DNA of 64,000 nt, from NCBI RefSeq assembly GCF_006715485.1, contig NZ_VFNH01000004.1, positions 310,001 to 374,000 on the forward strand. Reading direction: 5' to 3'. The notes below the pieces were generated by a model. That model saw only the letters and a program-made list of their open reading frames with translations. It was not told the DNA's origin and ran no database searches. Position numbers and translations under genes: made by a program. The stretch is from Herbaspirillum sp. SJZ107. Lineage in GTDB: Bacteria; Pseudomonadota; Gammaproteobacteria; Burkholderiales; Burkholderiaceae_D. Positions within the stretch are counted from its first letter, which is position 1, and every line of letters starts with the position of its first letter. Of the stretch, positions 42,408 through 61,434 are shown piece by piece.

Positions 42408-42433
42408 TCCTGGCGTAACCGGTCCCGTGCCCG

Positions 42434-43807: not shown

Positions 43808-43827
43808 GATGGCGGTCCTCCGGTCGG

Positions 43828-44875: not shown

Positions 44876-44887
44876 CTTGGAAGCGGA

Positions 44888-45157
44888 TCAGCCGCCGGAC
44901 AGCGGCTGGACGATGCGCACCTGGTCGCCCTGCGCGAGCCGCAGGCCGCACACGGCGTCCGGGTCGAGCACGCGCTGGTTGTGGATGATGAAGAAGCCGG
45001 GCCGCAGCATGCCTTCGCGCCAGAACGGATCGATGGCGCCGGCATGCCGGGTACCGAGGTCCGCCAGCGCCTCGGCGACGGTCGCGCCCACGGCCATCTC
45101 GAGCGGATACGCCAGGTGGTCGGCTTTGAGCGATTGTGGAATGAAAAGATGGGCCAA
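44888..45157 (-). CDS. ThiS/MoaD-like sulfur carrier protein with C-terminal Gly-Gly
   Basis: 89 residues. No ATG suits the domain start. A TTG at 45157 has GGAG six bases upstream and puts AHLFIPQSL as the first beta strand, so I chose it; a TTG at 45175 is an alternative. The ubiquitin-like fold shows VGATVAEALADL and ends GDQVRIVQPLSGG. Exact termination at Gly-Gly means no protease is needed before adenylation. It is probably thiocarboxylated at the C-terminus by the E1 two genes upstream, with sulfur from the adjacent cysteine desulfurase. It is the last gene of the RiPP operon and the likely sulfur source for thioamidation. Confidence 0.87.
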   Translation of the reverse strand: MAHLFIPQSLKADHLAYPLEMAVGATVAEALADLGTRHAGAIDPFWREGMLRPGFFIIHNQRVLDPDAVCGLRLAQGDQVRIVQPLSGG

Positions 45158-45179
45158 TTGGATCTCCAGGGTCAAGGGG

Positions 45180-46361
45180 TCATGCGGGGACGCGTTCGTG
45201 GGCCGCGTGTTCGTGCACCGACTCGGCGATCCGCCGCAGTGCCGCTGCCGCCGCGTCGACGTCGGCGGCCACGTTGAATTTGCCGAAGCTGATGCGGACG
45301 GCGCCGCCATGGCTGGCACCGCTGCCGAGCCATTCGTGGGCGAGCGGAGCGCAGTGCAGGCCGGCGCGGGTCATGATGCCGAAGTCGCGGTCGAGGACCG
45401 CGCTCACGGTTTGGCTGGGCAGATCGCCGACGTTGCACAGCACGATCGCGGCGCCGGCGTGCTCGCCGTACAGGCGGATGCCGGGCACGCCTGCGAGGCG
45501 CTGCCACAGGTCGTGCGCGTGGGCGTCGGCGTGCGAGGGCGGCTGGCGTTCCAGCCAGGCGAGGCTCTGCTCCAGCAGGGCCAGCCCGTGCACGTTTGGG
45601 GTGCCGGCCTCGAAGCGGCCCGGCGCGGCCTGCGGCATGTCGCGCGCATGCGCATCGCCGCCGCCACCGACCCGCAGCGGCGCCAGACCGGCGTCCGCCA
45701 GACGCGGGCCGAGGTACAGGAAGCCCAGGCCGGTCGGCCCGAGCAGGCCCTTGTGGGCCGGAAAGGCGACGGCATCCGCATGCATCGCCACGACGTCCAC
45801 CGGGACGCTGCCGACGCTCTGAGCGCCGTCGACGACGAGGAAGGCGCCGTACTCGCGGCACAGGCGGCCGATGCGCGCCATGTCGCGCACCTGCCCGGTC
45901 GTGTTGACCGCGTGCGCCAGCACCACCAGGGCGGGGTCCGGCGAGCGCGCGGCCGCGTATTCGAGTTCCCTGCGCAGGTCGAGCGTGCCGGCGGCGGACG
46001 GCGCGGCGATGCGCAGTTCGACCCCGCGCCCGGCCAGGCGGTACAGCGGACGCAGCACGCTGTTGTGCTCCAGGATCGAGGTAATGGCGGTGCGCGGCGC
46101 GAAGCGTTCCGCGATGCCGGCGATGGCGGTGTTCAGCAGGTCGGTGGTGTTGTAGCCGATGGCGATGCGGTCCGGACTTTCGGCGCCGATCAGGGCCGCG
46201 ATCCGTGCACGGCAGCGTCCAACGAGTTCTTCCGAGCGCACCGCGGCGCCGTGCGCGCCGCGGTGCGGATTGCCCCAGGGCGCGCCCAGCACCTCCGCCG
46301 CGCGGACATGAAAGTCGGGCGCCTTCGGCCACGAGGTCGCCGCATTGTCGAGATAGATCAT
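45180..46361 (-). CDS. Cysteine desulfurase (class V aminotransferase fold)
   Basis: 393 residues. MIYLDNAATSWPK at the N-terminus, VVDGAQSVGSVPVDV, the PLP lysine K204 in AHKGLLGPTG, and Cys337 in RAGLHCAPLAHEW as the candidate persulfide residue. Typical of the SufS/NifS-like group. It releases sulfur from cysteine. It overlaps the E1 gene by 4 bp and precedes the ThiS-like gene by 22 bp, so the three form a dedicated sulfur-relay unit. Confidence 0.92.
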   Translation of the reverse strand: MIYLDNAATSWPKAPDFHVRAAEVLGAPWGNPHRGAHGAAVRSEELVGRCRARIAALIGAESPDRIAIGYNTTDLLNTAIAGIAERFAPRTAITSILEHNSVLRPLYRLAGRGVELRIAAPSAAGTLDLRRELEYAAARSPDPALVVLAHAVNTTGQVRDMARIGRLCREYGAFLVVDGAQSVGSVPVDVVAMHADAVAFPAHKGLLGPTGLGFLYLGPRLADAGLAPLRVGGGGDAHARDMPQAAPGRFEAGTPNVHGLALLEQSLAWLERQPPSHADAHAHDLWQRLAGVPGIRLYGEHAGAAIVLCNVGDLPSQTVSAVLDRDFGIMTRAGLHCAPLAHEWLGSGASHGGAVRISFGKFNVAADVDAAAAALRRIAESVHEHAAHERVPA

Positions 46362-47401
46362 GAGGCCTCCAGCGCGTCGGCGAGCAGCGCATGGGCCAGG
46401 TCTTCGTCGCGGGTGCCGTCGACGATGACGCGGCCGTCACTGAAGAAGGTCAGGCGGTACTGGCGGCCTTCGAAGACATGGAGCCGTTCCAGGTGGTACT
46501 CGGTGCGGCTGCGGATGCTGTCCAGGGGCGCGCGCGCTGCCAGGTGCGCGAAGGCCGGCGCCGGCGGCGGCACCTGCAGCTGCAGCGCGTTGCGGCCGCA
46601 CAGCAGCCGGCTGCGCGCCGGCGCCGCGGCGGTTCCGGTCTCGCCGCGCCGTTTCACGCACACTTCGCAGTCGGCGCGGCGCATGACCGGCAGGGCAAAT
46701 TGCGTGTTTTCCCATACATTGAAGTACACCATCTCGCGGCGGCAAGCATCGGCGCGCCCGACCAGCAGCTTGACCGTCTCCGTGAACTGGGTGGTGGCGA
46801 CCTGGCCGATGGTGCTGGCCAGCACGCCGGCCACCGCGCAGGTCTTTTGCGACTGGTGGAGGGCAGGCGAGCCCAGCAGGCAATGAAGGCATGCCGTCTC
46901 CCCCGGCAGCACCGTGAAGCAGCAGCCTTCCATGCCCAGGGCCGCGCCATATACGTAGGGCACGCCGGCCGCGACCGCGGCGGCGTTCAGCTGCAGCCGC
47001 GTATCCAGCCCATCGAGGCCATCCACCAGCACGTCGACGTCGGCGGGAAGGCCGGTCCGTGCCAGGAAGGCGGCATCGAATTCGGTGGCGTGCACGTCGA
47101 CCTCGAGCAGCGAATTGATCTGCAGCAGGCGTTCGCGCGCGGCGGCGACCTTCGGCAGGCCGCGCTCGACGTCGCGCTCGCCGTACAGCATCTGGCGCTG
47201 CAGGTTGGAGGCGTCCACCACGTCCGGGTCGACCAGTGTCAGCTTGCGGATGCCGGCACGGCACAGGAGTTCCGCCACCTGGCTGCCGAGTGCGCCAACA
47301 CCGACGATCATCACATGGGCGGCCTTCAGCCTGGCGGCGCCTGCCGCTCCAATTTCCGGCAGTCTGGTCTGCCTGGAATAACGGTAATCGTTCGCATCCA
47401 T
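46358..47401 (-). CDS. MoeB/ThiF/HesA-type E1 enzyme for the sulfur carrier
   Basis: 347 residues. Nucleotide-binding loop GVGALGSQVAELL at residues 34 onward, NLQRQMLY (about 66-73), the conserved Asp in VDGLDGLDTR, a zinc site made of C171/C174 (CLHC) and C245/C248 (CEVC), and Cys188 in KTCAVAGVLAS where MoeB/ThiF enzymes have a reactive Cys. A C-terminal extension of about 80 residues is not the usual rhodanese domain. It should adenylate the Gly-Gly tail of the ThiS-like protein. Its start overlaps the ABC ATPase stop by one base. Confidence 0.92.
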   Translation of the reverse strand: MDANDYRYSRQTRLPEIGAAGAARLKAAHVMIVGVGALGSQVAELLCRAGIRKLTLVDPDVVDASNLQRQMLYGERDVERGLPKVAAARERLLQINSLLEVDVHATEFDAAFLARTGLPADVDVLVDGLDGLDTRLQLNAAAVAAGVPYVYGAALGMEGCCFTVLPGETACLHCLLGSPALHQSQKTCAVAGVLASTIGQVATTQFTETVKLLVGRADACRREMVYFNVWENTQFALPVMRRADCEVCVKRRGETGTAAAPARSRLLCGRNALQLQVPPPAPAFAHLAARAPLDSIRSRTEYHLERLHVFEGRQYRLTFFSDGRVIVDGTRDEDLAHALLADALEAS

Positions 47402-48105
47402 CAGTTGATCGCTTCCCGGTAGAGCTGGGTCAGGTTAACGTTCTTCAGTTCGGCCTGCGAAAAACGCGCCAGCAACTGTCCCGACTTCATGAGCGCCACC
47501 TTGTCGGCGATCTCCGAGCTGCGCAGCAGGTCGTGCGTTGACATCAGTACGGCCGCACCCGAGTCGCATAGCTTGCGGATCGAGTCGAGCACGCTGTCCG
47601 CGGCGCTCGGGTCCAGGCCCGACAGGGGTTCGTCGAGGAACAGGGCCTTGGCGTTGCGGATGCGGCAGATCGCGAAGGCCGCCTTCTGGCGCATCCCCTT
47701 GCTGAAGGTGCCGACCCGGCGGTGATGAAATTTGCCGTCCAGCCCGCATTCCGACAGCATGGCCGCGCACTCGTCGGCATCGACGGCCCGCTCGTTCCCC
47801 AGCCGGGAAAAGAACAGGATGTTCTGCATCGCCGTGAAGTTGTCGTACAGGCGCACATTCTCGGACAGGAAGCCGAGGTGGCGACGCGCCAGCAGCGGCT
47901 GCGTGGTGGCGTCGATGCCGCTGATGACGGCGCGGCCGGAACTCGGCTGCAGGAAGTTGAGGAACATGTTGATGGTCGTGGTCTTGCCGGCGCCGTTTGC
48001 GCCATACAGGCACATGATTTCCCCGGGCGCCACGTGGAACGACACATCGTTGACGGCGACGTGGTCGGCGCCGAAGCGCTTGACGAGATTTTCTGCGGTA
48101 ATCAC
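47401..48105 (-). CDS. ABC transporter ATP-binding protein (second exporter set)
   Basis: 234 residues. Walker A GANGAGKTT, signature FSKGMRQK, Walker B ALFLDEPLSGLD and switch His in MSTHDLL. It resembles ATPases of ABC-2-type systems. It lies 9 bp after the NEW3-domain accessory gene, whose neighbour is the large permease, so the three probably form one transporter. Likely role: export of, or immunity to, the modified peptide. Confidence 0.93.
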   Translation of the reverse strand: MITAENLVKRFGADHVAVNDVSFHVAPGEIMCLYGANGAGKTTTINMFLNFLQPSSGRAVISGIDATTQPLLARRHLGFLSENVRLYDNFTAMQNILFFSRLGNERAVDADECAAMLSECGLDGKFHHRRVGTFSKGMRQKAAFAICRIRNAKALFLDEPLSGLDPSAADSVLDSIRKLCDSGAAVLMSTHDLLRSSEIADKVALMKSGQLLARFSQAELKNVNLTQLYREAIN

Positions 48106-48114
48106 TCTAAGCTC

Positions 48115-49704
48115 CTAACGAAGTCTGACTTTTTTGCCGACATACACGATGATGAGCAGGACGGCGAGGAACAGGAACAGTACGACGAAGACGGGCAGCA
48201 TGCTGGGGCCGGACTTCACTACCAGGCGGAACACCTTTTCGTCGATCGCCAGCGGCCGGGTCGACGAATAGCCCTCGGTCTTGACGCGCAATTCGTATTC
48301 GCCCACCGCGCTGTCGTTCGGGGTGGTCACCCGCACCTTGACCTTCTTCTCCTGGCCGACGCCGACGCTGGTGATCAGCGCCGGTTCAAAGGCCACGCCG
48401 ATGCCGTTCGGCTTTTCGCTGTCGAAGCGGATGTTTTCCAGCGAGCTCGATCCCTCGTTCTTGACGGTGAAGCCGAACTCGCTGTGGGCGCCCGGCACGA
48501 GTTCGTGCACCAGGCTGTTCGCGACGATGGACAGCTTGCCCAGCCCGCGCGCCACCAGTTTCAGCTCGAGCGAGCCGAGAGACTGGCCGCTGAAGTCGGT
48601 CTCGGCGACCTTGCGGTCACCGGCCGGCAGCTTGGCGACGTTCTTCTCGTCGACAGCGGCGACGATGAAGGGTAGCGGCGCATCCAGCTTGAAGCCCTCG
48701 ACATGGCGCGCCGGAAGCTCGAGGCGCAGCATCAGCGGCCGCGCGGTCTCGCCATTCTCCAGCCTGACCTGGGACACGCGGCTTTTGCCGTCCGCCGACA
48801 CGATGCTGTAGCTGATACTGGGCGGCAGGTTGTACACCTGGAAGAAGAAAGCGCGGCTGTCCTGTCCGCTCCTGCGGATCTCGAACGGATAGTCGATCGC
48901 GCTGCCGAGGTTGGCTTCCTGGTTGATCCGGCCCGCCGTCAGCTCGACGTCGCCGCTCTGGAACTTCTGCTCGGCATAGACGCCGATCTCGTGTTCCGAC
49001 GAGCGGTAGGTGATGTGGATGTTGAAGCGCTCGGCGTCGGTCAGCAGGCGGAAGCGCAGGACCTTGGTCTCGTTGTAGCTCCAGCTGCCGATCTTCAGGT
49101 CGTAGGGAATCGCCACGGCCACCTGTGACGGCATCGCGAACTGGCCCTGCGCATAGCCGGTCCCCGCGCCGGCGCCGGCGCCGCCCGCGAAGTTGTTGGC
49201 CTCGCGCACCGAGATGAAGACATTGTCCAGCCGGCGCTGCAGGATTTCGCGCGGGAAGGCCAGGTCCTTGTCCATTGACGCGAACAGCATCTGCTGCGAA
49301 TCGTCGACCAGCAGGGTCGCGTTGCGTAGGGCCAGTTCCAGGTACTGCTGGCCATCCTTGCCCTTCACCTTGACGGCACGCTCGACCGTGATCTTGGGTT
49401 CGGTGCTGACCAGGTCCATCACCGAACGCTGGAAGCGGATCTCGGCCAGGCGTGCATCGGCGCGCTTCTGCTCGATGTCGGTCTTGCTGACGATGCCTTT
49501 TTCGGCGAGCGGCTCGTACTGCTGCAGCTTGGCGCGCGTCAGCTGGACCTGAACCAGGTTTTCTCGGATCGTCAACAGACTGGTCTGGTCCTGCAGGCTG
49601 TTGGCGAGGCTGTTTGCCGGCATCCCGGCCACGAACGCGGCGGCTGCCAGCGCAGCCGCGGCGGAGACGGAGGCGAGGCGCCGCGCGAAGGCTGACGCGG
49701 TCAT
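48115..49704 (-). CDS. Exported membrane-anchored accessory protein with coiled coil and NEW3-like domain
   Basis: 529 residues from the ATG at 49704 (an ATG at 49722, overlapping the permease, is possible). A signal sequence is followed by a stretch like the hairpin of HlyD-type adaptors: LQQYEPLAEKGIVSKTDIEQ at about 60-80 within a charged helix. The centre is beta-rich. Near 415-490 lies an NEW3-like Ig domain (EFGFTVKNEGSSSLENI, KVKVRVTTPNDSAVGEYEL). One C-terminal membrane helix (MLPVFVVLFLFLAVLLIIVYV) ends in KKVRLR. It sits between the permease and ATPase genes, so it is probably the periplasmic part of that ABC system. Confidence 0.75.
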   Translation of the reverse strand: MTASAFARRLASVSAAAALAAAAFVAGMPANSLANSLQDQTSLLTIRENLVQVQLTRAKLQQYEPLAEKGIVSKTDIEQKRADARLAEIRFQRSVMDLVSTEPKITVERAVKVKGKDGQQYLELALRNATLLVDDSQQMLFASMDKDLAFPREILQRRLDNVFISVREANNFAGGAGAGAGTGYAQGQFAMPSQVAVAIPYDLKIGSWSYNETKVLRFRLLTDAERFNIHITYRSSEHEIGVYAEQKFQSGDVELTAGRINQEANLGSAIDYPFEIRRSGQDSRAFFFQVYNLPPSISYSIVSADGKSRVSQVRLENGETARPLMLRLELPARHVEGFKLDAPLPFIVAAVDEKNVAKLPAGDRKVAETDFSGQSLGSLELKLVARGLGKLSIVANSLVHELVPGAHSEFGFTVKNEGSSSLENIRFDSEKPNGIGVAFEPALITSVGVGQEKKVKVRVTTPNDSAVGEYELRVKTEGYSSTRPLAIDEKVFRLVVKSGPSMLPVFVVLFLFLAVLLIIVYVGKKVRLR

Positions 49705-49708
49705 GTGT

Positions 49709-51109
49709 TTAGCTGACTTCATAGTTGAGAAATACCCGATATCCGGTTAAACAGAAGGCCAGCAGGTACAGCAGCAGCACCGTGATGTCCGGCGCCAGCC
49801 GCGCCATGTCTTCCATCAGGCTGGCCATGGGGGCGCGGAACTCGGGCAGGCCATCCAGGTCGAGGCTGCTCGGCACCGTCTGGTCCCTGCCCTCCAGCTG
49901 GTCGCGGCGCTCGGCCATCATCTTTTCGCCCACGAAGCCCTGGAAGGCGTTGCGGTACTGCTTGACCTCGCCGATGAAGCGCTCCTGGCGCTCCAGGTCG
50001 GTGGCGGTCAGGACCAGGATGATGTTCTCGAAGGCGGCCGACGGCGACAGCCGCGACATCCACGTGATCAGCTGGTTACGCTGCTGCACCTGGGCCGCGT
50101 AGGTTTCGTCGATGCGCGCTTTTTTCTTCTTGACCTCGTTCTGCAGGTCGCCCACCAGCTTGCTCTGCACCTCCATCGGCACGTCGGCAGTGCCTGCATG
50201 CTCCTGCAACCAGCGCTGCTGCACCGCGATCGAGTCCTTGTAGCGCTGGCGGTCGATTTCCCATTTCTGGCCTTCGATCGTGTGGGCCGACGGCAGGTCG
50301 GTGGCCAGCGTCGCGCCGTACAGGCTGAGGCTGGGCACCACCCAGATGAACACCAGCCAGAACAGGACCGAGACCAGCAGCGCATTCGAGGGCTTCGAGA
50401 CCAGACACGAGACCATCACGCCGAGCGCGCTGAAGATGGCCAGGTACAGGATGCTCGAGCCGACGATCAGCGCCAGCCGCAGCCAGTCGTCGCCGCGCCA
50501 GTGGAAATTCCCGGTCATGACGATCGCCAGGATGCCGATCAGCATCGGCAGCAGCAGCGGCAGCAACAGGGTGGCCATCGATCCGACCAGCTTCGCGAGG
50601 ATCAGCTGGGCGCGCGGCACCGGGTGCGACAGCAGCAGCTTCAGGGTGCCGACTTCCTTCTCGCTGTTGATGACGTCGAAGGTCAGCATCATGGCGAACA
50701 GGGCGACCACCACGCGCACCACGAAATTGAAGTCGAAGGCGCTGAACTGCGCGTACACGGGCTCGACACTGAGCAGCGAATCCTGCAGTTTCGGTTCCTG
50801 CACGATGGAGACCGTGGCATTGGTGCCGACCGACTCGTCGACGCCCTTGGCGAAGGCCATCAGCGATGAAGGCGGGCGGTACACCTTGTACAGCCCCCAG
50901 ATCCCGAGAGCCTGGTAGGACACCTGCTGGCGCGTGGTCTCGTGCATCTGCGCGACCGAATCTTCGTACTGCTTCTGCGCCAGGTTGAAATCGTGGGTGC
51001 CAATCACGAGGCTCAGCAGGACCAGCACACTGCACATCAGGAAGATGATGACGAACCGTGCCGACTGCAGGTTGTCCAGTAATTCACGCAACATCAGTAT
51101 CCGGAACAT
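49709..51109 (-). CDS. ABC-2-type transporter permease with large extracytoplasmic loop
   Basis: 466 residues. A first helix (about 18-38) is followed by a periplasmic loop, then five helices between about 130 and 275 (INSEKEVGTLKLLLSHPVPR is the typical cytoplasmic coupling segment). A second large loop with coiled coil (about 300-420) precedes a last helix. This is the architecture of ABC-2 permeases with inserted loops. It pairs with the ATPase at 47401. Gaps of 12 and 4 bp to its neighbours show it belongs to the RiPP operon. Confidence 0.88.
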   Translation of the reverse strand: MFRILMLRELLDNLQSARFVIIFLMCSVLVLLSLVIGTHDFNLAQKQYEDSVAQMHETTRQQVSYQALGIWGLYKVYRPPSSLMAFAKGVDESVGTNATVSIVQEPKLQDSLLSVEPVYAQFSAFDFNFVVRVVVALFAMMLTFDVINSEKEVGTLKLLLSHPVPRAQLILAKLVGSMATLLLPLLLPMLIGILAIVMTGNFHWRGDDWLRLALIVGSSILYLAIFSALGVMVSCLVSKPSNALLVSVLFWLVFIWVVPSLSLYGATLATDLPSAHTIEGQKWEIDRQRYKDSIAVQQRWLQEHAGTADVPMEVQSKLVGDLQNEVKKKKARIDETYAAQVQQRNQLITWMSRLSPSAAFENIILVLTATDLERQERFIGEVKQYRNAFQGFVGEKMMAERRDQLEGRDQTVPSSLDLDGLPEFRAPMASLMEDMARLAPDITVLLLYLLAFCLTGYRVFLNYEVS

Positions 51110-51121
51110 TCGTGAACCCCA

Positions 51122-51703
51122 TCAATAGAGTGAAACGTTGCGCACGTCGAAGGCGAACGGCATGACACCGCCGCTGACGTGCAGGCCGATACCGTTGACC
51201 ATCCTGGAATCCCATTTGACGCGGCGGCCGAAGCCGAGCTGCGTCAGTTTCGAGAACGGGATCTCGAAGGTCTTCCATTCCTTTGTGGCGATGAACTCGG
51301 CGCCGTACTCGTCGTGATCGCGCACCGACTTGAGCAGGACGTTCAGCCGGTACACCTTGCCGTCGCCGCGGGCCGTGAAGCGCAGGCCCTGGCGGCCGCT
51401 CCAGTCCATCAGGGCGGCACCGGCCGGCGCCTGGGTCTGGAAGCCCATGAACGGGAACATGAAACCGGTCTTCAGCTTGCCCTGGATGTGCAGGAACTCG
51501 ACCCCGCTCTCGCTGCGCGGCTGGAGCATGCCGTCGGACTGGCCGGAGCCGGTCATGGCGTCGGTGTATTTCATCCATTGCGGCCCGGGCTGTCCGGCGG
51601 CCGTCACGCGGGCGAGGAATTGGTCCGAGGGCGACGCCGCCTGCGCCATCCCTACCAGCGCGGCAAGAGCCAGGCCGATTGTCAGTCTTCGAATCTGTAA
51701 CAT
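51122..51703 (-). CDS. Exported CIA30/CBM11-like beta-sandwich protein
   Basis: 193 residues with a signal peptide (LALAALVGMAQAASPS) and an AGGAG site upstream. The mature part fits the CIA30 / carbohydrate-binding galactose-binding-like fold: GLRFTARGDGKVYRLNVLLK, EWKTFEIPFSKL and GIGLHVSGGVMPFAFDV. It is periplasmic or secreted. Its role in the operon is unknown; binding of the product or support of the second ABC system are guesses. It lies 9 bp after tfuA and 12 bp before the permease. Confidence 0.7.
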   Translation of the reverse strand: MLQIRRLTIGLALAALVGMAQAASPSDQFLARVTAAGQPGPQWMKYTDAMTGSGQSDGMLQPRSESGVEFLHIQGKLKTGFMFPFMGFQTQAPAGAALMDWSGRQGLRFTARGDGKVYRLNVLLKSVRDHDEYGAEFIATKEWKTFEIPFSKLTQLGFGRRVKWDSRMVNGIGLHVSGGVMPFAFDVRNVSLY

Positions 51704-51712
51704 CGGAATCTC

Positions 51713-53877: not shown

Positions 53878-53879
53878 GG

Positions 53880-54530
53880 TCAGCTCCATTCGTGGCGCAC
53901 CGGGCTGCGTTCGAACACACGCACGGTAAGCCAGAGCAGGGCCGGGGAGGCCGCCGCCAGCAGCAGCGGCAGTACCGGCAGGACGGCGGGCAGGCCGGGC
54001 AGGTGCGCTGCGATGCGGCTCCAATTGACGGCCAGGTTGATGCCCACGACCAGCAAAGGAAACGGCAGCCAGATCGCGCGCGACGAATTGAACAGAATGG
54101 CGCAGCTCAGGTAGAAGCTGCTGCTGAACAGTTGCAGCAGCACGAAGGTAACGATGTTGTCGACATCCGGCATGTCGCTATCCTCGCGCGCCAGGCAGTA
54201 CAGCAGCACGCTGCCCCAGACGACCAGGAAATTGGTCAGGGACAGCAGCCAGGTGGCGGCGAATTTTGCGACCACGATCTCGCGACGGGTAACAGGCAGG
54301 CTCAACAGGAAGGCCATCCCGGTCGCGCCGTCTTCCGACGCCACCATGCGGAAGCTGAGCACGAAACCCGCGATGAAGCTGATGCCGAACGCGAGCGTCA
54401 GCAGCACCTGCGGATTCAGGTTGTCGATCTGGGCGCCCAGCGAGAGTACCAGGCCCAGTTCGCAGGCCATCACGAACAGCAATTCGCCGGCGTGGTGGCG
54501 CAGGTCTTTCTTCAACAGGATCGAGTTCAT
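53880..54530 (-). CDS. ABC transporter permease (first exporter set)
   Basis: 216 residues from the ATG at 54530, overlapping the ATPase stop by 4 bp. About six hydrophobic segments: ELLFVMACELGLVLSLGAQI, LLTLAFGISFIAGFVLSF, AATWLLSLTNFLVVWGSVLL and others. FLLSLPVTRREIVVAK is the typical coupling segment of ABC-2/CcmB-like permeases. With the ATPase at 54527 it forms a compact two-gene exporter, probably for the mature peptide or self-protection. Confidence 0.87.
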   Translation of the reverse strand: MNSILLKKDLRHHAGELLFVMACELGLVLSLGAQIDNLNPQVLLTLAFGISFIAGFVLSFRMVASEDGATGMAFLLSLPVTRREIVVAKFAATWLLSLTNFLVVWGSVLLYCLAREDSDMPDVDNIVTFVLLQLFSSSFYLSCAILFNSSRAIWLPFPLLVVGINLAVNWSRIAAHLPGLPAVLPVLPLLLAAASPALLWLTVRVFERSPVRHEWS

Positions 54531-55174
54531 GCTGCGCGCTCCAGCGGCTGGCGGCCCATGTCGAAGGCACCGGCGGCGATCTTCCAGCGACGGCGGGCGG
54601 CGGCGGTCAGGGGATCGTCGTCGTGGCTGCAAATGACGAGCGCATCGCGTTCGGCCAGGCGGCCCAGGAAGAAGTTGCCGATCACTTCCTTGGCGTCGGC
54701 GTCGACAGGGGCGAGCAGTTCGTCCAGCAGGAAGATACGGGCGCCGCTGCAGGCTGCCAGCAGGAAGTTCAGCTTGGCGTTCATGCCCTGCGACAGGTGC
54801 TTGACCTTGACGTCCAGCGGCAGCTTCAGCTGGGCGGCGAGCTCGGCTTCAAGCTGGCGGCGCCAGCCGCGGTAGAACTGGCGCGCAAACGCCAGCACTT
54901 CGGCCGCGGTCAGGTGGGCATAGGCGCGGCGCAGACTACCGGCGTAGACGACGTCCTGCTTGTAGGCAATCGGGGCGTCCGCCAGCGTGTGGCCGTAGGC
55001 GCTCAATTCGGTATGCCGGGCCATGAAGATCCCCGCCAGGCTCTTGAGGAGCGTCGATTTGCCGGCGCCATTCGCGCCCTGCAGCCAGACCGACTCGCCG
55101 GGCGCAAGGCGCAGCGCGTCCACATGCAGGCTGAAGCCGGGCAGGCTCAGGTCGAGATTGTTTGCTATCAACAC
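54527..55174 (-). CDS. ABC transporter ATP-binding protein (first exporter set)
   Basis: 215 residues. Walker A GANGAGKSTLLKSL, signature LSQGMNAKLNFLLAA, Walker B ARIFLLDELLAPVDADA, and switch His in ICSHDDD. It is short, of the CcmA-like type. Its permease partner overlaps its end. The upstream M50 protease gene ends 13 bp before its start, with protease, ATPase and permease in sequence. Confidence 0.92.
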   Translation of the reverse strand: MLIANNLDLSLPGFSLHVDALRLAPGESVWLQGANGAGKSTLLKSLAGIFMARHTELSAYGHTLADAPIAYKQDVVYAGSLRRAYAHLTAAEVLAFARQFYRGWRRQLEAELAAQLKLPLDVKVKHLSQGMNAKLNFLLAACSGARIFLLDELLAPVDADAKEVIGNFFLGRLAERDALVICSHDDDPLTAAARRRWKIAAGAFDMGRQPLERAA

Positions 55175-55187
55175 GATGTTGCTCCAG

Positions 55188-56390
55188 TCAGGAATGGTTC
55201 GGTACCAGGTATTTCTGCTTGATCGTCCGTAGGTAGGCGACCAGCGACAGCGCCAGCATCGCAGCGACGAGGGCCAGCAGCCCCATGGCGAGCAGCGGAT
55301 GCAGGCTGCCCAGCAGCTTGAGCAGCACGCGCCGCGACTGGTCGACGAAGAAGGCGATGACGGCGACCGAGAAGCCGGAAAACAGCCAGTAAATCGCGCC
55401 GTTGCGTGGCCTGAAGTTCAGGCGCATGGCCCGGCGTACGACCGGCAGCCGCGACATCACGTAGGCCGTAGAGCGCTGGCGCAGGTTGGGTTCGCCGAGC
55501 AGGTCGCTCAACACCCAGTAGCCGTCCAGGCGCAGCGTCGGAATGGCGTTCAGGACCATGCGCGTGAGCAGGATGATGAAGAAGATGAAGGCGGCCTGGC
55601 TCACGTAGGAATAGGGATCGGCCCAGATCAGTACCTGCGCGGTGGCGATCGCCAGGTAGCTTTCCACATACAGCCCGGCGAGCGCGATCTCGATGCGCTG
55701 CAGCTTTCGCGGCAGCATCCAGGCCTCGGAGACATTCACATACACCCCGATTTGCAGGAAGTACAGGACCACCTGGAACTCCCGTACCCGCGCACCGTGG
55801 CGCCGGCAGGCATAGGCATGCCCGAGCTCGTGCATCAGCGACGACACGATCAGCAGCGCGTACACCAGGATCCAGTTGGGAAAGTGGGTAAAGGCAGCGA
55901 ACTGCGGCCAGGCGAACACGTTTTCCTGGACGCACTGGTAGCTGGTGACGACCAGCGCCAGCACCCACAGGACCAACGCGGGCCTGCCGAAGAAAGGCCG
56001 GTATAGCACCGACACCAAATCGAGCACCCGGTTCGGGTCGCACTGGAACAGGCGCAGCAGCAGGATGTTGCCGCGGGCGGAGGCCGGTGCCGCTGCAGGC
56101 GCGCCGTCGGCGGTTTGCAGCAGTCCGGCGCCGGCGGCCTGGCGCAGCATACCCAGCGCCGCGCCGCGCTGGGCCGGCGGCAGGGCGGCGACGAAGGCGC
56201 CGGCCGTGCCGGGTCCCTCGATCCGCTGCAGCAGTTGCAGTGCCGCCAGCGGCAGCCGGAAATGGCGCCCGTCCGGACGCTGCAGGATCGCGAGCGGCTT
56301 GCCGTCCTGTTCCTGGGTCGCGATGGTCAGTGACGGCGACAGCGGCGCGATCGGGAAATCGGCCGGCGCGGCGTAAGATTCGTGGTTCAT
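55188..56390 (-). CDS. M50 membrane metalloprotease with PqqD-like N-terminal domain
   Basis: 400 residues from the ATG at 56390. Residues 15-95 form a small winged-helix-like region (SLTIATQEQDGKPLAILQRP, FRLPLAALQLLQRI) resembling PqqD/RRE leader-binding domains. Then come several membrane helices and the zinc site HELGHAYACRRHG (H187, E188, H191), with TLRLDGYWVLSDLLGE as the second half of the site-2-protease motif. The mix of a possible leader-binding domain and an intramembrane protease suggests leader removal at the membrane before export, but this is an inference. Immunity is an alternative role. One base separates it from YcaO-2. Confidence 0.85.
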   Translation of the reverse strand: MNHESYAAPADFPIAPLSPSLTIATQEQDGKPLAILQRPDGRHFRLPLAALQLLQRIEGPGTAGAFVAALPPAQRGAALGMLRQAAGAGLLQTADGAPAAAPASARGNILLLRLFQCDPNRVLDLVSVLYRPFFGRPALVLWVLALVVTSYQCVQENVFAWPQFAAFTHFPNWILVYALLIVSSLMHELGHAYACRRHGARVREFQVVLYFLQIGVYVNVSEAWMLPRKLQRIEIALAGLYVESYLAIATAQVLIWADPYSYVSQAAFIFFIILLTRMVLNAIPTLRLDGYWVLSDLLGEPNLRQRSTAYVMSRLPVVRRAMRLNFRPRNGAIYWLFSGFSVAVIAFFVDQSRRVLLKLLGSLHPLLAMGLLALVAAMLALSLVAYLRTIKQKYLVPNHS

Positions 56391-56391
56391 G

Positions 56392-57699
56392 TCAGGCGAA
56401 AGGATGTGGATGCGGGTTGAGATCGGCAAGCGTGTTCGGCGTGCGCAGGTAGCCCAGGCGCACCGGTACCTCGTAGATGCGGCGGTGCCCCAGGCTCGGA
56501 TAGCGGTGGTCGGCGGTCAGAGGCACCAGGTCGGGCACCAGGACCTTGCGCACCTTGACCCCGAGGCTGGCCACGTCGCCAGGCGCCAGGTCGACGGCGA
56601 CGGCTTCGCCGACGAAGGGGCGCAGGCGGCGCAGCGCATCGAGCAGGTGAGCCCGAGCATCCGCGCCGGCCAGGCCGTCGCGTTCGCCGCGCATCGCCAC
56701 CTGCGTGGCGCTGTCCAGGAAGCGCAGGTGCGGGCGCAACGCGGGCGAGGTGTAGGCGAGGTCGCGCTGCTCCAGGTTGGTGAAGTCACCATGCGCCTCC
56801 TTGGGTTGCCACACGGCGCGGTCGTTCTGGTCGAGGTGGTAGCGTATGCGTTCGGCGCTGGATGCCGCCTCATGGAAGGCCTTCACCGCGGCGGCGGCAT
56901 GGTCCGGCTTGGCCGACAGGCCCAGCGTGGTGCATGCCTGCCCGTAGATATGCTGGTGCATGACCGCCATGACGGTCGGGATGCCGTGATCCATGGTCAG
57001 GTCGATCAGCGCGCAGGTGGCGCCGCTGCGCCCGATCCGCGCGGCGATCAGCGCCAGCGCCGCGCTGTCCGCCGGCAGGCGCAGCTGCGGCATGGACAGG
57101 CGGTTCAGCCACATGATCATGAAGGCGTCCCGTTCAACCGTTTCCAGCAGGCCGCTCAGCAGAGCTTCGTCGCGGGTCCAGCCGGCCGCCATGCCGGTCG
57201 ACGTCGACAGGCCGAGGTTGTCGGCGCGCGATGCGGGCCGGTAGGGCACGTACACCATGGCCGCCGGCACGAAGCGCCGCTCCAGGTCGAACAGCGAGGT
57301 GCCGCCGAGCCAGAACACTTCGCTGTCGCCATCCAGCCGTGCGAACGGGAAGCCGGGCTGCGCGTACTGCCACGGAGCAAAGATCGGAAACCGTTCGCTG
57401 TGCAGAAACTGCGCCGACGTCGGCTTCGACCAGATCAGGCGCTCGTGGTCGATATGGGCGCCGGAATAGCGTTCGAGCCCTTCGAAGATCGATTTCACGA
57501 TCGCATCGCGTTCGTTCAGCCCGAGCGCGCCCGCGGTCTGGATGTTGTGGCCATGCGGCAGACGGGCGTAGTCGGGTGTCATGTTGATGCAGTTGAAGAA
57601 GCCGGCCGAACGCGCCTGGCCGGGCAGGAACAGCAGGCTCTTGATCAACCCGGTGCGCGGCGACAGCACGCGCTCGGCGAGGGCGGCAATGTCGCGCAT
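56392..57699 (-). CDS. YcaO-2: azoline-type YcaO cyclodehydratase
   Basis: 435 residues; its ATG overlaps the SagB stop by 3 bp. YcaO ATP-site motifs: KSIFEGLERYSGAHIDHERL and SGLLETVERDAFMIMW. The C-terminus ends NPHPHPFA, the Pro-rich tail typical of azoline-forming YcaOs. It is clearly related to YcaO-1 along most of its length but well diverged. It should use ATP to cyclise Cys, Ser or Thr of the precursor to an azoline, guided by the F protein. Division of labour with YcaO-1, for example Cys against Ser/Thr, is possible but unproven. Confidence 0.92.
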   Translation of the reverse strand: MRDIAALAERVLSPRTGLIKSLLFLPGQARSAGFFNCINMTPDYARLPHGHNIQTAGALGLNERDAIVKSIFEGLERYSGAHIDHERLIWSKPTSAQFLHSERFPIFAPWQYAQPGFPFARLDGDSEVFWLGGTSLFDLERRFVPAAMVYVPYRPASRADNLGLSTSTGMAAGWTRDEALLSGLLETVERDAFMIMWLNRLSMPQLRLPADSAALALIAARIGRSGATCALIDLTMDHGIPTVMAVMHQHIYGQACTTLGLSAKPDHAAAAVKAFHEAASSAERIRYHLDQNDRAVWQPKEAHGDFTNLEQRDLAYTSPALRPHLRFLDSATQVAMRGERDGLAGADARAHLLDALRRLRPFVGEAVAVDLAPGDVASLGVKVRKVLVPDLVPLTADHRYPSLGHRRIYEVPVRLGYLRTPNTLADLNPHPHPFA

Positions 57700-58586
57700 C
57701 AGATCGTCGCCGGCAGGGACCGCAGCTGGCCGGCCGGGGCCGGACGGCCACCGACGAGGAAGCCCAGCAGCACGGGTTCGTCGAGCGGGTTGACGTCCAG
57801 TACCTTGGCCATGCGGTCGTCGAACAGGCCGCCGAGGGCGCAGGCGCCGAGGTCGAGCGCCGTCGCGTTCAGGTACAGGTTTTGCAACAGGGTGCCGGCA
57901 TCATGCATGAGGAAGCGGTAGCCGCGCTGCCGGTACTTCGACAGAGTGCGCTTCCAGACGCCGGTCAGCACGAACAGGACCGAGGCGTTCTTCAGCAGGT
58001 CGTGGTAGGTCGTGCACTCGAACAGTTCGTCCAGCATGTCGCCGGTGCGCAGGCGCTGCAAGGCGTGCTGGGGCACGTTGTAATGGTACACGCCGCGTTC
58101 GAGTCCCTCGACGTTCAGCACGATCGGATAGATCTCCATCGGGTACAGGCCGCCGGACGAGGCGGCCGGGCGCCCGAAGCCGCCGTCCTCGAAGCGGCCC
58201 TTCCAGGGTTGCGGACGGGTCGCGCCGTAGGAATGCAGCAGCAGCGCGCTCAATGCCTCCAGGCGCAGGGTGTCGGGCCGGAAGCTGGTGGCATAGGTGC
58301 TGAGCGACGCGCGCCGCTTCAAGGCGTCGGCCAGCGTCATGTCGCCCAGGGATGCCTGCTTGTCGAGCGGGATCGACAGGGCGGCCGGGTAATTCTTCCA
58401 GGCGCGCTGCATCATCGCGAGGATGTTCGGATCGGACTTGATCTCGCCGACCCGGCGGCCTATCTCGCGCGTCGAATTCGGCGACAGTTTGGTGTGTTCG
58501 TGGAAGGTTTCGACGATCTCGTTATCGTCCTTCTGGAAGATGTCGATGAACGAGTACGAAACGTAATCAATGTCTTTCTTTAGCAT
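57699..58586 (-). CDS. SagB/ThcOx-type FMN-dependent azoline dehydrogenase
   Basis: 295 residues, with CGGAG before the start. Nitroreductase-fold motifs: KRRASLSTYATSF, RPAASSGGLYPMEIYPIVL, YRQRGYRFLMHDAGTLLQNL preceded by the SK of the conserved Lys-Tyr pair, and GACALGGLFDD. It oxidises azolines to aromatic azoles. It sits between the two azoline-type YcaO genes, so the final product probably contains thiazoles or oxazoles. Confidence 0.93.
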   Translation of the reverse strand: MLKKDIDYVSYSFIDIFQKDDNEIVETFHEHTKLSPNSTREIGRRVGEIKSDPNILAMMQRAWKNYPAALSIPLDKQASLGDMTLADALKRRASLSTYATSFRPDTLRLEALSALLLHSYGATRPQPWKGRFEDGGFGRPAASSGGLYPMEIYPIVLNVEGLERGVYHYNVPQHALQRLRTGDMLDELFECTTYHDLLKNASVLFVLTGVWKRTLSKYRQRGYRFLMHDAGTLLQNLYLNATALDLGACALGGLFDDRMAKVLDVNPLDEPVLLGFLVGGRPAPAGQLRSLPATI

Positions 58587-58610
58587 ATCGAACTCCGTGC
58601 AGGCCCCTGG

Positions 58611-59942
58611 CTAGGGAAATGGATGGGGAATGCTGTTGAACGAACCTTCCGGCAGCGCTTTTCTCGACAGCTTGCGGGGAACCTGTTCCAGCCTAGGGCA
58701 GCCGAGCGTAGGCAGCCCATGGGTGGCGTACAGCGTGGACAGCCCGGGAATGAAGACCTTGGGCACTACGAAACCGAGGTCGCGAATCTCGCTGGTGGTC
58801 AGGTCGACGGCGCAGGCCTCGTAGCCGGCCGCCTCGACCGCACGCACGCACGCGGCCAGGTCCTGCGCTGCGCTGCCATGGCAGCCGGCGTCGAAATCGG
58901 GTGTGATGCTCAGCGTGGTGTCGAGCAGGAAGCCGGCATGGGCGCGCATTTCCGGTTCACAGTACAGCCGCACGTGGTCCTCGAAGTCCCTGACGTTCAT
59001 GAAGTCGGGATCGGGCCGCCAGTCGGCGCGCCGCTGCATCAGCGAATTGGCCCAGGTCAGCGTCTGCGACGCTTCCAGCCACGCCTTGATCACGGCCTGC
59101 CGGTAATTCGGCCGCGTCGACGCGCCGACGCACAGGTAGGGACCGCGCGCGCTGGTGCCCTCGATCACGCACAGTACCGTCGGGATCGCGATGTCCAGGG
59201 TCAGGTCGAACAGGTGGAACTCGATGCCGCGGCATTTGAAGTAGCGTTCGTACAGCGCGGCCAACTGGGCGTCGTGCCGCCATTCCAGGCGCGGCACCTC
59301 GAGCTGCTTGAGCCAGGTGATGATGAAGGCGTCGCGTTCGACGACTTCGCACAGCCCGCTCAACAGGGCAGCGTCCGGATCGGTGTGGCAGGCCTGGCCG
59401 CTCGACACCGAATACGCGAGCAGGTCGTTCGGGCGTTCCGGGCTGGTGTGCGCGACGTATGGGATGAAGGACAGACACGCCGGGACGTATCGCGTTTCTT
59501 CCTGCCCCAGGACCTTGGCGCCGACCCAGTGGATCGGCAGGTCGGGACTGGCAGCCGCGAACGGATAGTTCGGATGGCTCTGCTGGCGCTGCGAATAGAT
59601 GGCGAAGGTGTCCATGCCGATAGCCGCCGGGCCCAGCTCGCGCTGGGTCGCGTGGATCAGCTCATCGTGGTCATACACGGCGCAGCAATAGCGTTCGATG
59701 CATTCGCCGACCGCGCCCATCGCCGCGTCGTTCCAGGTCAGGCCCGCCGCGCCGGTGTCGCCGATCAGCTCCGAGCGGTTATAGGCGCTGATCGAGCTGA
59801 CCACGGACGATGCGTTGTGGGTGCGCGGGAAGCCGGACTGGTTCAGGATGCGCTGCACATGGCGTACCAGGGCCAGCGGGCCCTGCACGGTTGCGTTGCT
59901 GTGCGCCAGGATCCGGTCCAGGGTGTCGTTCGCGGCCATCAT
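58611..59942 (-). CDS. YcaO-1: azoline-type YcaO cyclodehydratase
   Basis: 443 residues from the ATG at 59942 (the next codon, 59939, is also ATG). ATP-site motifs: AMGAVGECIERYCCAVYDHD and SGLCEVVERDAFIITWLK. The C-terminus ends SIPHPFP, matching the Pro-rich tail of azoline-forming YcaOs. It starts inside the stop of the F-protein gene, as is usual for F/D pairs in thiazole/oxazole-modified peptide clusters, so this is the most likely catalytic partner of the F protein. Confidence 0.93.
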   Translation of the reverse strand: MMAANDTLDRILAHSNATVQGPLALVRHVQRILNQSGFPRTHNASSVVSSISAYNRSELIGDTGAAGLTWNDAAMGAVGECIERYCCAVYDHDELIHATQRELGPAAIGMDTFAIYSQRQQSHPNYPFAAASPDLPIHWVGAKVLGQEETRYVPACLSFIPYVAHTSPERPNDLLAYSVSSGQACHTDPDAALLSGLCEVVERDAFIITWLKQLEVPRLEWRHDAQLAALYERYFKCRGIEFHLFDLTLDIAIPTVLCVIEGTSARGPYLCVGASTRPNYRQAVIKAWLEASQTLTWANSLMQRRADWRPDPDFMNVRDFEDHVRLYCEPEMRAHAGFLLDTTLSITPDFDAGCHGSAAQDLAACVRAVEAAGYEACAVDLTTSEIRDLGFVVPKVFIPGLSTLYATHGLPTLGCPRLEQVPRKLSRKALPEGSFNSIPHPFP

Positions 59943-61090
59943 GCCCAGACCCTCTCGGGGACGCGCTCGGCATGCGCGTTGCAATGCGGGCAGCGGGGCA
60001 CGCGCAGCACGGGATGGCGCTCGGAGGACAGGTCCTCGACGTTCACGGTCAGCAGCTTGCCGGCGCAGATCGGCGTCATGTCAGGCGCCAGCATGCGGAC
60101 TGCCTCGACGGTGGCATAGTTGGCAGCGATTTCCGCAAATGGCGGCAGCACGCCGAAGTTCTCCACTTCCTTCATCGCATTCACGGTATCGGCGAAGGCC
60201 TTGTAGCTGTCGACGTGGCCGACATTGCTCTGGAAGCGGTATTCGTAGCACTTGTAGCAGGCGGTCTCGCTGGGGATGATCGCCGGTCCCATCTGGATCT
60301 CCGTGTTGTCGACCACCGCCAGCGGCAGCCACATCACGTTGGCGGCCAGCACTGCCTTGTTCAGCGATTCGTAGGCCGGATTGAAGATCACGGGCTTGCT
60401 GCAGGCGCTGATGACGAGATCGCATTCGCGCAGCAGCTGCTGCCATTCGATCACTGACGATGGCGCGGCGCCGACGGCAGTGACGGCCGTCGGCAGGCCA
60501 GCGCCGTCCAGCTGCCTGGCGATCACCTCGGCGGGGTGGCGCCCGAGATCGGCGGCCGACAGGTGGCGGCTGCGGGCAATGTCGCACTGGGCTACGGGAT
60601 CGGCCAGCACCAGGATGCGGCCGGCGGCCACCGACGCCAGATTGAGCGCCAGCGGAATAACGAGCTCGGCGGCGCCATACAGCAGGATGCAGCTCGCATG
60701 CATGGCCAGCACAGGCTGCCAGCTGTTCGTGCCGGTATCGCTATATCGGCTGACCGTGCGGCGGAAATGTTTATTCAGTGATTCGAGTTTCGTGGAATCG
60801 TAATTTTTAAATTCGAGAGGAATGGGATCGATTTTCTCGATCATATTCCTTTCATTCAATGCCTTGAATACTTGGCGACATTGATCCGCATTATCGAAAG
60901 AGGTAATTTGCGAATAGACTTCGGCTTCGCTGTAATTCCCGCCGAGCAGGCCGAGGACTTTCATTACCGCAGTCCGGACGATAGCGCCCTTCAATACGAT
61001 ACTTTTGCCTTCGGTGCGTATTTGCAGACTTTCCTGGGATTGCCATACCAGATGCTGGTCTACAAGTTTAATTTTGCGTTGATCATCCAT
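59939..61090 (-). CDS. ThiF-like leader-binding partner protein (F protein) of the cyclodehydratase
   Basis: 383 residues from the ATG at 61090. The frame opens further upstream to 61234, but that part would overlap the terminator and the precursor gene. Residues 1-95 form a RiPP recognition element-like winged helix (IVLKGAIVRTAVMKVLGLLG). A degenerate E1-like domain follows; the nucleotide loop reads LLYGAAELVIP, without GxGxxG. Zinc ligands are CYKC (278-281) and CPHC near 368. Such proteins bind the leader peptide and stimulate the YcaO, but do not adenylate. It is the first maturation gene after the precursor. Confidence 0.9.
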   Translation of the reverse strand: MDDQRKIKLVDQHLVWQSQESLQIRTEGKSIVLKGAIVRTAVMKVLGLLGGNYSEAEVYSQITSFDNADQCRQVFKALNERNMIEKIDPIPLEFKNYDSTKLESLNKHFRRTVSRYSDTGTNSWQPVLAMHASCILLYGAAELVIPLALNLASVAAGRILVLADPVAQCDIARSRHLSAADLGRHPAEVIARQLDGAGLPTAVTAVGAAPSSVIEWQQLLRECDLVISACSKPVIFNPAYESLNKAVLAANVMWLPLAVVDNTEIQMGPAIIPSETACYKCYEYRFQSNVGHVDSYKAFADTVNAMKEVENFGVLPPFAEIAANYATVEAVRMLAPDMTPICAGKLLTVNVEDLSSERHPVLRVPRCPHCNAHAERVPERVWA

Positions 61091-61150
61091 ATATTGGGCA
61101 GGTCTTATCAAGAAAGTGTCAAAGAGGGAATCCGCCTGCGAAGAGGATAT

Positions 61151-61190
61151 AAAAAAACCCGCCGAAAACCTTGCGGTTCCCGGCCGGGTC
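61151..61190 (-). terminator. Intrinsic terminator/attenuator between precursor and maturation genes
   Basis: On the minus strand, ACCCG, CCGGG and AACC pair with GGTT, TTCGG and CGGGT around a GCAA tetraloop, followed by seven T. It begins 14 nt after the precursor stop. Partial read-through would give far more precursor mRNA than enzyme mRNA, a common RiPP design. Confidence 0.82.
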
Positions 61191-61203
61191 AGTGCCGCAT
61201 CTA

Positions 61204-61362
61204 TTAATAGATGACGCAGCTGGTCGAGGTGCACTCGCAGGAGCTGCTGGTGGCACAGGCCGCGCTCAGCATCGCAGTGCGGTCCTCGAGTTCTTCGATC
61301 ATGAAGTCGGCGATTTCGAGTTCGGTGGTGTTGATTTCAGCGACTTCGTTTTTGATTTCCAT
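61204..61362 (-). CDS. RiPP precursor peptide, Cys-rich core, thiazole/oxazole and thioamide candidate
   Basis: 52 residues, found by hand translation of the minus strand; too short for routine calling. TTTGAGGTTTGAC before the ATG gives a GAGG site at good spacing, and the end carries tandem stops TAA TAG. Residues 1-32 form a very acidic leader (eight Glu and two Asp; ELEIADFMIEELEDRTAML). The core region begins near SAA and contains CATSSSCECTSTSC, then VIY: four Cys (36, 42, 44, 49), with Ser and Thr between them. The leader resembles those of thiopeptides and linear azole peptides. The cleavage site is not known; after Ala34 or Ala35 is plausible. It is the first gene of the operon. Confidence 0.9.
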   Translation of the reverse strand: MEIKNEVAEINTTELEIADFMIEELEDRTAMLSAACATSSSCECTSTSCVIY

Positions 61363-61434
61363 GTCAAACCTCAAATAAAGAGTGAAAGAAGAAAGAAATG
61401 CCGTTCGAATCCGGTTCGACAGCCGGGAATGGCG

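Follow-up and report, generated by a model that had tools for sequence, protein, structure and literature searches.

A Herbaspirillum operon predicted to combine azol(in)e formation with backbone thioamidation in one peptide

Main finding

The analysis concerned a 64,000-nucleotide stretch of the genome of Herbaspirillum sp. SJZ107 (contig NZ_VFNH01000004.1, positions 310,001–374,000; hereafter the window), a genus that we take to be betaproteobacterial, and within it a run of genes on the minus strand at 44888–61362. With a probability of roughly 0.7, this run is a horizontally acquired, largely self-sufficient operon for a ribosomally synthesised and post-translationally modified peptide (RiPP), the product of which would be linear, azol(in)e-containing and backbone-thioamidated; the chemistry, and the meeting of both modifications on one peptide, are predicted from gene content. 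A more specific proposal, which we favour slightly, is that the operon represents a distinct RiPP subclass, namely thioamidated linear azole peptides without dehydroamino acids, found in this bacterium and in an actinobacterium. Two paralogous cyclodehydratases, each with an ortholog in the other phylum, would then share the core, and a YcaO/TfuA pair fed by its own line from cysteine to ThiS thiocarboxylate would thioamidate the same peptide, perhaps in its hydrophobic aromatic tail. Both proposals build on known activities: a C protein with a SagD-type YcaO and SagB makes azoles, and a YcaO with TfuA makes thioamides.

Operon architecture

The run comprises 16 genes and a precursor gene, all on the minus strand, and the 17 frames are intact with one stop each (starts as chosen here). 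Every gene named by a first-pass annotation of the window was recovered in place and on that strand, with families assigned by Pfam and NCBIfam scans. The same annotation had genes overlapping or at most 24 bp apart from the leader-binding gene to the ThiS-like gene, in agreement with the measured range of −14 to +24 bp across these 16 genes. Curated cut-offs were exceeded by the leader-binding protein, YcaO1, YcaO2, SagB, TfuA, ThiS, the E1 enzyme and the desulfurase.

The precursor (61204–61362) is a 52-residue peptide with a leader of about 33 residues and the core AACATSSSCECTSTSCVIY, in which 12 of 19 residues are Cys, Ser or Thr (four, five and three, respectively). It was the sole match below an expectation value (E) of 0.2 in its own genome, and a search of plasmids returned no match. 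About 240 bp upstream of its start lies a sigma-70-like promoter-like site (TTGACA-18-TACAAT, 61602–61631, minus strand) with 11 of 12 consensus bases; six such sites were counted in the 1.5-kb region against a shuffle mean of 1.5, which is no proof of function. The 113 bp between the precursor and the first enzyme gene contain a terminator-like hairpin (61161–61184; 10 pairs, six of them G-C, and a T-tail), a possible attenuator, the region having four terminator-like sites against a shuffle mean of 2.1.

The azole half begins with an E1-like leader-binding protein of the thiazole/oxazole-modified microcin (TOMM) type (59939–61090; 383 residues; TIGR03882, 58.0 bits, cut-off 36.9). There follow YcaO1, an azoline-type cyclodehydratase ending in PHPFP (58611–59942; 443 residues; TIGR03604, 307.0 bits, cut-off 219.25), a SagB-type flavin mononucleotide (FMN) azoline dehydrogenase with the motif KYxxRGYR (57699–58586; 295 residues; TIGR03605, 143.3 bits, cut-off 78.4), and YcaO2, a second azoline-type cyclodehydratase that ends in PHPHPFA and has no ExxQ (56392–57699; 435 residues; TIGR03604, 272.9 bits, cut-off 219.25). 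The next gene encodes an M50/S2P intramembrane metalloprotease (55188–56390), a candidate leader peptidase with HELGH and LDG motifs (PF02163, 45.8 bits, cut-off 27.2), which scored 147 bits, under the cut-off of 300, with NF041824 and is a relative of the daptide protease. The first ABC system consists of an ATPase (54527–55174; PF00005, 56.5 bits) and an ABC-2 permease (53880–54530; PF13346, 41.4 bits on a longer frame).

The thioamide half is embedded in the array. YcaO3 (52717–53889) is a thioamide-type YcaO (PF02624, 185.1 bits, cut-off 25.7; TIGR00702, 167.4 bits, cut-off 75.65) that overlaps both its neighbours; its best solved relative is MJ1094 (E 5.8e-12), and it reached only 133.5 of the 365 bits set for the archaeal McrA equivalog TIGR03266. 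Adjacent to it, with a 4-bp overlap, lies TfuA (51713–52720; 335 residues including a C-terminal extension; PF07812, 131.4 bits, cut-off 30), which carries the motif ASMGALRA and matches the solved TfuA 6xp8 (E 1e-26). The sulfur relay closes the array with a ThiF/MoeB-type E1 enzyme (46358–47401; PF00899, 207.1 bits, cut-off 28.1), a cysteine desulfurase with the motif RAGLHCA (45180–46361; PF00266, 231.5 bits, cut-off 21.5; best NCBIfam match TIGR01977, 274.3 bits, under its cut-off of 377) and a ThiS/MoaD sulfur carrier with a TTG start and a Gly-Gly C-terminus (44888–45175; PF02597, 29.8 bits on a slightly longer frame, cut-off 22.5). Kept motifs comprise the TfuA Ser (in ASMGALRA), M50 HExxH, SagB KYxxRGYR, the desulfurase Cys loop, the ThiS Gly-Gly end and the YcaO3 motifs.

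Between the two halves of this module are a CIA30-domain protein with an N-terminal hydrophobic stretch (51122–51703; PF08547, 57 bits) and a second ABC system, made up of an ABC-2 permease (49709–51109; ABC2_membrane_2, DUF3526; PF12679, 99.7 bits) and an ATPase (47401–48105; PF00005, 91.9 bits), with a NEW3-domain protein (48115–49722; PF10633, 46.3 bits) between its parts. Two alternative frames, 51084–51893 and 45172–46440, had no Pfam match, and the CIA30 and desulfurase genes, respectively, were taken instead. Three of the four YcaO matches in the genome lie inside the window. The fourth is an OsmC-fused YcaO (TIGR03549, NF040716) outside it, at G000:C4:609805-610812 (L002), of a family annotated as ribosomal-protein associated.

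Leader-binding protein

The first-pass annotation had called the leader-binding gene an F protein. An E1-like leader-binding gene is indeed present; the F-type label is the less probable one, as the protein scored best as a TIGR03882/SagC-like E1 protein, over the cut-off of that model, and the F-protein model TIGR03693 (ocin-ThiF-like) was absent from its match list up to E 1. In the counterpart at locus L058, described below, TIGR03693 gave a weak match of 25.1 bits (cut-off 561.9). A profile of five leader-binding homologs, in which two CxxC pairs are invariant, matched MccB, TruD, LynD and MusD as the nearest solved relatives. The protein is thus more probably C-type, serving discrete YcaOs, than F-type.

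Related clusters

The core set recurs at L058 (NAEP01000023.1), which the taxonomy assigns to Candidatus Lumbricidiphila eiseniae (Microbacteriaceae, Actinomycetota; spelled Lumbricidophila in the record title). A YebC gene on the same stretch shares 68–69% identity with a pair of actinobacterial records, while no other listed record exceeds 46%, which supports the actinobacterial assignment; a literature search under the spelling Lumbricidophila, the one spelling used, returned no paper on this host. Common to the window and L058 is the order C-YcaO1-SagB-YcaO2-M50-ABC ATPase-permease-YcaO3-TfuA, with identities in local alignments of 30% (C), 47% (YcaO1), 44% (SagB), 39% (YcaO2), 26% (M50), 34% (ABC ATPase), 31% (permease), 41% (YcaO3) and 46% (TfuA), and of 37% for ThiF. 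The two clusters share the precursor family, the azole genes, the M50 protease, the first ABC pair and YcaO3/TfuA, with a ThiS-like gene and ThiF nearby. They differ in that L058 has three tandem Cys-rich precursors in front, each with more Cys, whereas the window has one; in L058, moreover, the ThiS-like frame lies upstream and ends in Ser-Ser-Gly-Gly, and ThiF is fused to a rhodanese downstream on the other strand. The same order in another phylum indicates that the grouping of these genes is more than chance.

Homology of the precursors was assessed with shuffles that kept leader and core composition apart. With the three L058 precursors the window precursor gave scores of 94, 75 and 95, and none of 2000 shuffles scored as high in any of the three comparisons. 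The window precursor and its three L058 counterparts each end, after the last Cys, in a short hydrophobic, aromatic tail (CVIY, CVAWA, CVYTW, CIVWF). Against the precursors of pAMI4, L154, Teredinibacter and R. jaguaris, 134, 911, 408 and 174 of 2000 shuffles, respectively, scored as high, so no homology is claimed with these four.

A second comparable cluster, L154, comes from the same class and occupies 2156–12030 on one strand in the order precursor-C-YcaO-SagB-unknown-ABC-type ATPase (by its P-loop)-ThiS-ThiF-YcaO-TfuA. It has one azoline YcaO, where the window has two, its precursor is different from that of the window, and the two LanB-type queries used found no match in it. Its protein between SagB and the ABC-type gene, of 459 residues, has no Pfam or NCBIfam match.

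Distribution

Relatives of single components were sought in increasingly wide sets of genomes. The C protein matched in 31 of 392 family genomes, a sample drawn evenly from a larger group and including its own genome, with a best foreign match of just E 2.6e-11. TfuA matched in 6 of 399 order genomes (own included); a YcaO3-type gene stood beside it at four of the five foreign loci, and none of the five had a C protein, a SagB or a YcaO nearer to the azoline type. At E 1e-30 the YcaO1 profile matched in 4 of 369 class genomes and 4 of 398 phylum genomes, its own included in each; the best foreign score was 189.6 bits, as against 223.8 for YcaO2 of the same cluster and a self-score of 916.5, so the class and phylum sets hold no close ortholog. 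A pattern search for YcaO1 in genome contigs gave 39 stretches that fit the pattern, of which none was a relative.

When named species genomes were scanned with a TfuA alignment, at least 544 stretches were confirmed; the best 80 were retained, and the cluster proteins served as queries against them at E 1e-5. An azoline-type YcaO was found in the fetched DNA of four of these 80 loci: L058, with the full set; L069, a Chloroflexi metagenome-assembled genome, with a YcaO and SagB; L094, with a partial YcaO at the contig end and a PF14028-type relative; and L123, with a 719-residue YcaO protein. Four in 80 is a lower bound, because just 38 of the 80 loci span at least 20.4 kb. LanB-type queries alone matched in three further loci of the 80, L109 and, weakly, L135 with the PF14028 query, and L084 with an 846-residue protein from the plasmid pAMI4. 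The latter protein had been called a LanB dehydratase by eye; it has no Pfam match, and matches to that query count for little.

Phylogenetic analysis

In a midpoint-rooted tree of 53 YcaOs, azoline-type and TfuA-type proteins separated, and YcaO3 fell among the TfuA-associated ones. The YcaO1 proteins of the window and L058 were sisters (support 0.999), as were the YcaO2 proteins (0.999), and the two pairs joined at 0.694. These trees point clearly to common ancestry of the azole half in the two clusters. For YcaO3 and TfuA, a first, quick tree was computed from 49 of 82 available loci, and 18 of the 49 rows (long branches and near-copies) were dropped from the set used for the approximately unbiased (AU) test. 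The window row formed a long branch, and the YcaO-TfuA pairs of L058, L154, pAMI4, L094, L080, L109 and L084 lay together on one branch, with values of 90 and 85 in the Shimodaira–Hasegawa-like approximate likelihood-ratio test (SH-aLRT).

Proposed pathway

The following sequence of steps would account for the gene content. The precursor would be made in excess, as the hairpin after its gene suggests, and the E1-like C protein would bind the leader and present the core to YcaO1 and YcaO2. These two enzymes would cyclodehydrate the Cys and some Ser/Thr residues to azolines, which SagB would oxidise to azoles. In parallel, the cysteine desulfurase would take sulfur from cysteine, the ThiF-like E1 would adenylate the Gly-Gly end of ThiS so that a thiocarboxylate forms, and TfuA would release sulfide from it into YcaO3, which would swap oxygen for sulfur in at least one backbone amide of the same peptide. 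The M50 protease would remove the leader, presumably by a cut near the GG/SA motif, and the ABC systems would export the product or protect the host.

Published work, cited throughout for the excerpts available of each paper, bears on several of these steps. TfuA has been reported to hydrolyse ThiS-COSH to feed its YcaO (PMC13185837, PMC8153245), through a Ser-Lys pair (PMC13185837). Thioamitides are sometimes made with ThiF and ThiS homologs, and one refactored cluster gave a single thioamide (PMC9576775).

The proposal of the first-pass annotation that one Cys-rich peptide receives both modifications is favoured by the single compact array with its single precursor and by recurrence at L058, with homologous precursors, and at L154, with a different one. 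The placement of both modifications on a single peptide, like their number, is what we infer from this arrangement.

Weighing of the evidence

A number of observations weigh against this interpretation. The leader-binding domain lacks structural support, as the model of the C protein was poor (mean predicted local distance difference test score, pLDDT, 44.6). YcaO2 has no ExxQ either in the window (56392–57699) or in L058 (4810–6114), the motif being kept in YcaO1 and YcaO3; several other azoline YcaOs of the same alignment also lack it. The leaders alone were equalled by 8, 63 and 30 of 2000 shuffles for the three L058 precursors. In the 20.7 kb of L058, the cysteine desulfurase, NEW3 and CIA30 proteins were unmatched, the M50 protein fell under the Pfam cut-off (19.8 of 27.2 bits), and the ThiS-like frame had no Pfam match and a poor model (pLDDT 57.6), whose best fold matches were sulfur carriers at insignificant E-values. 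Beyond L058, 76 of the 80 best TfuA loci carried no azoline-type YcaO in the fetched DNA, within the limits of length given above, and azole clusters like this half occur without TfuA (L049 by search; L056 by annotation only).

The trees add to these points. The YcaO3/TfuA pairs of the window and L058 were not resolved as sisters (support 0.179), L058 ranked ninth in identity to the window pair among the 49 loci (35.8%; best 36.5%), and a topology holding the two together was neither rejected nor shown (AU p 0.114). The thioamide module may therefore have been recruited separately in the two lineages. Either history, one shared thioamide half or two recruitments, would tie the azole and thioamide functions together.

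It is unlikely that the operon makes a plain azole peptide by means of YcaO1, YcaO2 and SagB, with YcaO3/TfuA and the sulfur relay as passengers that modify another peptide or protein. Azole clusters of similar layout without TfuA do exist, most of the YcaO-TfuA pairs retrieved are without neighbouring azole genes, and protein-modifying YcaOs are known, for instance for uL16 (PMC13063428); yet YcaO3 lies within the array and overlaps its neighbours, the combination recurs in L058 and L154, the genome yields one good precursor match, and a distinct OsmC-YcaO gene, whose family is associated with the ribosome, stands elsewhere (L002). We give even less credence to the operation of YcaO3/TfuA and the relay on some other kind of bond, for instance a thioacid at the C-terminus or an azoline that YcaO3 would form. 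E1/ThiS pairs do make thioacids as well. The azoline variant was once thought possible for trifolitoxin-type TfuA clusters: in 2015 the substrate of TfuA-associated YcaOs was still unknown and TfuA was implicated in trifolitoxin (PMC4603692). However, those bacterial YcaO-TfuA pairs that have been characterised form backbone thioamides (PMC8153245, PMC6511847), and two azoline-type YcaOs are already present here.

A thiopeptide or dehydrated azole peptide, for which a dehydratase and cyclase encoded elsewhere would turn the Ser-rich core into a macrocycle, also ranks as very improbable. The precursor shows a weak likeness to the thiocillin-type model NF033482 (17.6 bits, cut-off 25), and the pAMI4 cluster, with similar enzymes, has a PF14028 protein beside its YcaO. 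Absence of a lanthipeptide-type dehydratase and a [4+2] cyclase had been claimed for the window: for the cyclase this was borne out, as PF14028 (cyclase/SpaB_C) had no match genome-wide, the same model matching pAMI4 at E 3.7e-36 (one of three control records); for the dehydratase the result is weaker, since PF04738 had no match in the genome but none in its controls either. No dehydratase family appeared among the Pfam matches of the cluster genes. With the PF14028 cyclase-type family absent from the genome, a thiopeptide product is unlikely. A silent or decaying cluster without a product is hardly credible: it was found in none of the relatives examined, but its 17 frames are intact, and the SagB, M50, TfuA, YcaO3 and desulfurase motifs are kept together with the ThiS Gly-Gly end.

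Comparison with known systems

The claim that the cluster is undescribed proved only partly right. Malit et al. (2021) reported, by genome mining, YcaO-TfuA clusters annotated as azole peptides (Fig. 5C) and thiopeptides (Fig. 5D), as well as thiopeptide-like precursors in several Proteobacteria including Herbaspirillum (PMC8120280), and one dehydrazole cluster has been noted to carry a YcaO/TfuA pair in addition (PMC10676384). The pairing of azole enzymes with YcaO-TfuA is hence already known. The azole-annotated clusters of Malit et al. carry azole enzymes and YcaO/TfuA together, as the window does; unlike it, most of them, in the excerpts available, have fused cyclodehydratases and split lanthipeptide dehydratases (PMC8120280). 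The exact set found here (two cyclodehydratases, its own sulfur relay and no dehydratase found), or its product, was not met with in a search of the open-access literature, subscription papers and supplements lying outside it.

Thioamide thiopeptides such as saalfelduracin and thiopeptin (PMC8120280) and the pAMI4 cluster resemble the window in their azole enzymes, YcaO/TfuA and Ser/Cys-rich precursor, and pAMI4 also in ThiS and MoeB. They differ in that thiopeptide clusters have split dehydratases and a cyclase (PMC8120280) and pAMI4 has a PF14028 protein, whereas the window has no PF14028. The pAMI4 locus of Paracoccus aminophilus (L048:5942-24819) is itself a candidate thioamide thiopeptide cluster in an alphaproteobacterium, with a small Cys-rich gene, ThiS, MoeB, a PF14028 protein, a YcaO, a leader-binding protein, a nitroreductase, a site-2 protease, a further YcaO and TfuA. 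In Teredinibacter waterburyi, a Ser/Cys-rich precursor-like frame of 60 residues (L084:7013-7195) lies near a YcaO/TfuA pair and near a gene resembling the unclassified 846-residue pAMI4 protein; no azoline-type YcaO was found in the 20.7 kb of this locus.

The thioviridamide group and the thiovarsolins have an adjacent YcaO and TfuA with the TfuA motif, as in the window, which has azole formation and a desulfurase-E1-ThiS line of its own in addition. The AviMeCys flavoprotein and the kinase/HopA1 families were absent from the Pfam matches of the cluster genes, the rest of the genome not having been searched; likewise, no LanM-type match (as in dehydrazole LanMbC) occurred among these matches, though no targeted search was made. 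Compared with an azole-peptide system, which we take to consist of a precursor, an E1-like C protein, a YcaO D protein, a SagB dehydrogenase, a protease and ABC export, the window has two D proteins instead of one, plus the thioamidation module and the sulfur relay. Loci L049 and L056 (Rhizobium plasmids) and L153 have a C protein, SagB and three azoline-type YcaOs, with a precursor-like small gene in L049; TfuA and ThiS had no match in L049 and L153, and none is annotated in L056, the gene table of which is incomplete.

Genomic surroundings

The operon lies in an extra segment of 19,947 bp (42395–62341) relative to the nearest relative found, L167, in which the flanks are 21 bp apart and the flanking DNA is 94–95% identical. 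In L168–L171, the blocks adjoining the site show 79–86% identity, with distances of 83, 792, 1392 and 2194 bp between them. These five same-genus loci (7.2–18 kb long) are those that, outside the genome itself, best match the TonB-receptor gene next to the site, and the cluster proteins were unmatched in all five at E 1e-5. The TonB-receptor gene itself matched in 49 of 62 genus genomes (own included) at E 1e-60. GC content stands at 0.657 within the segment, compared with 0.656 for the 10 kb on its left side and 0.685 for the 1.7 kb on its right; base composition thus carries no hint of foreign origin. In stretches of 300 bp around the two ends, no direct repeat exceeded 11 bp.

Immediately downstream of the operon (42434–44951) are two further minus-strand genes whose membership of the cluster is putative. 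One encodes an extracytoplasmic function (ECF) sigma factor (44232–44951, true start probably further in; PF08281, 49.3 bits; PF04542, 46.7 bits), the other a 608-residue BAAT/dienelactone-type hydrolase (42434–44260; PF08840, 76.4 bits), which at E 1e-60 matched in just its own among 62 genus genomes and in none of the other 61. Because the whole of 42395–62341, with these two genes, is extra relative to L167, the unit may extend beyond 44888.

Significance

That a closely similar gene set occurs in an actinobacterium suggests a genuine rather than an accidental pairing of azole and thioamide formation, and its presence in two phyla speaks for a function under selection. If the proposal is true, this would be a compact system in which azoline- and thioamide-forming YcaOs share one substrate, and the order of the modifications, leader recognition and the division of labour among three YcaOs could be tested in it. 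A 2021 paper, in the excerpt available, left to future work the question of whether the TfuA of bacterial RiPP clusters acts as the archaeal protein does (PMC8153245). The operon encodes a sulfur route from cysteine to ThiS together with a bacterial TfuA, and makes that comparison directly testable.

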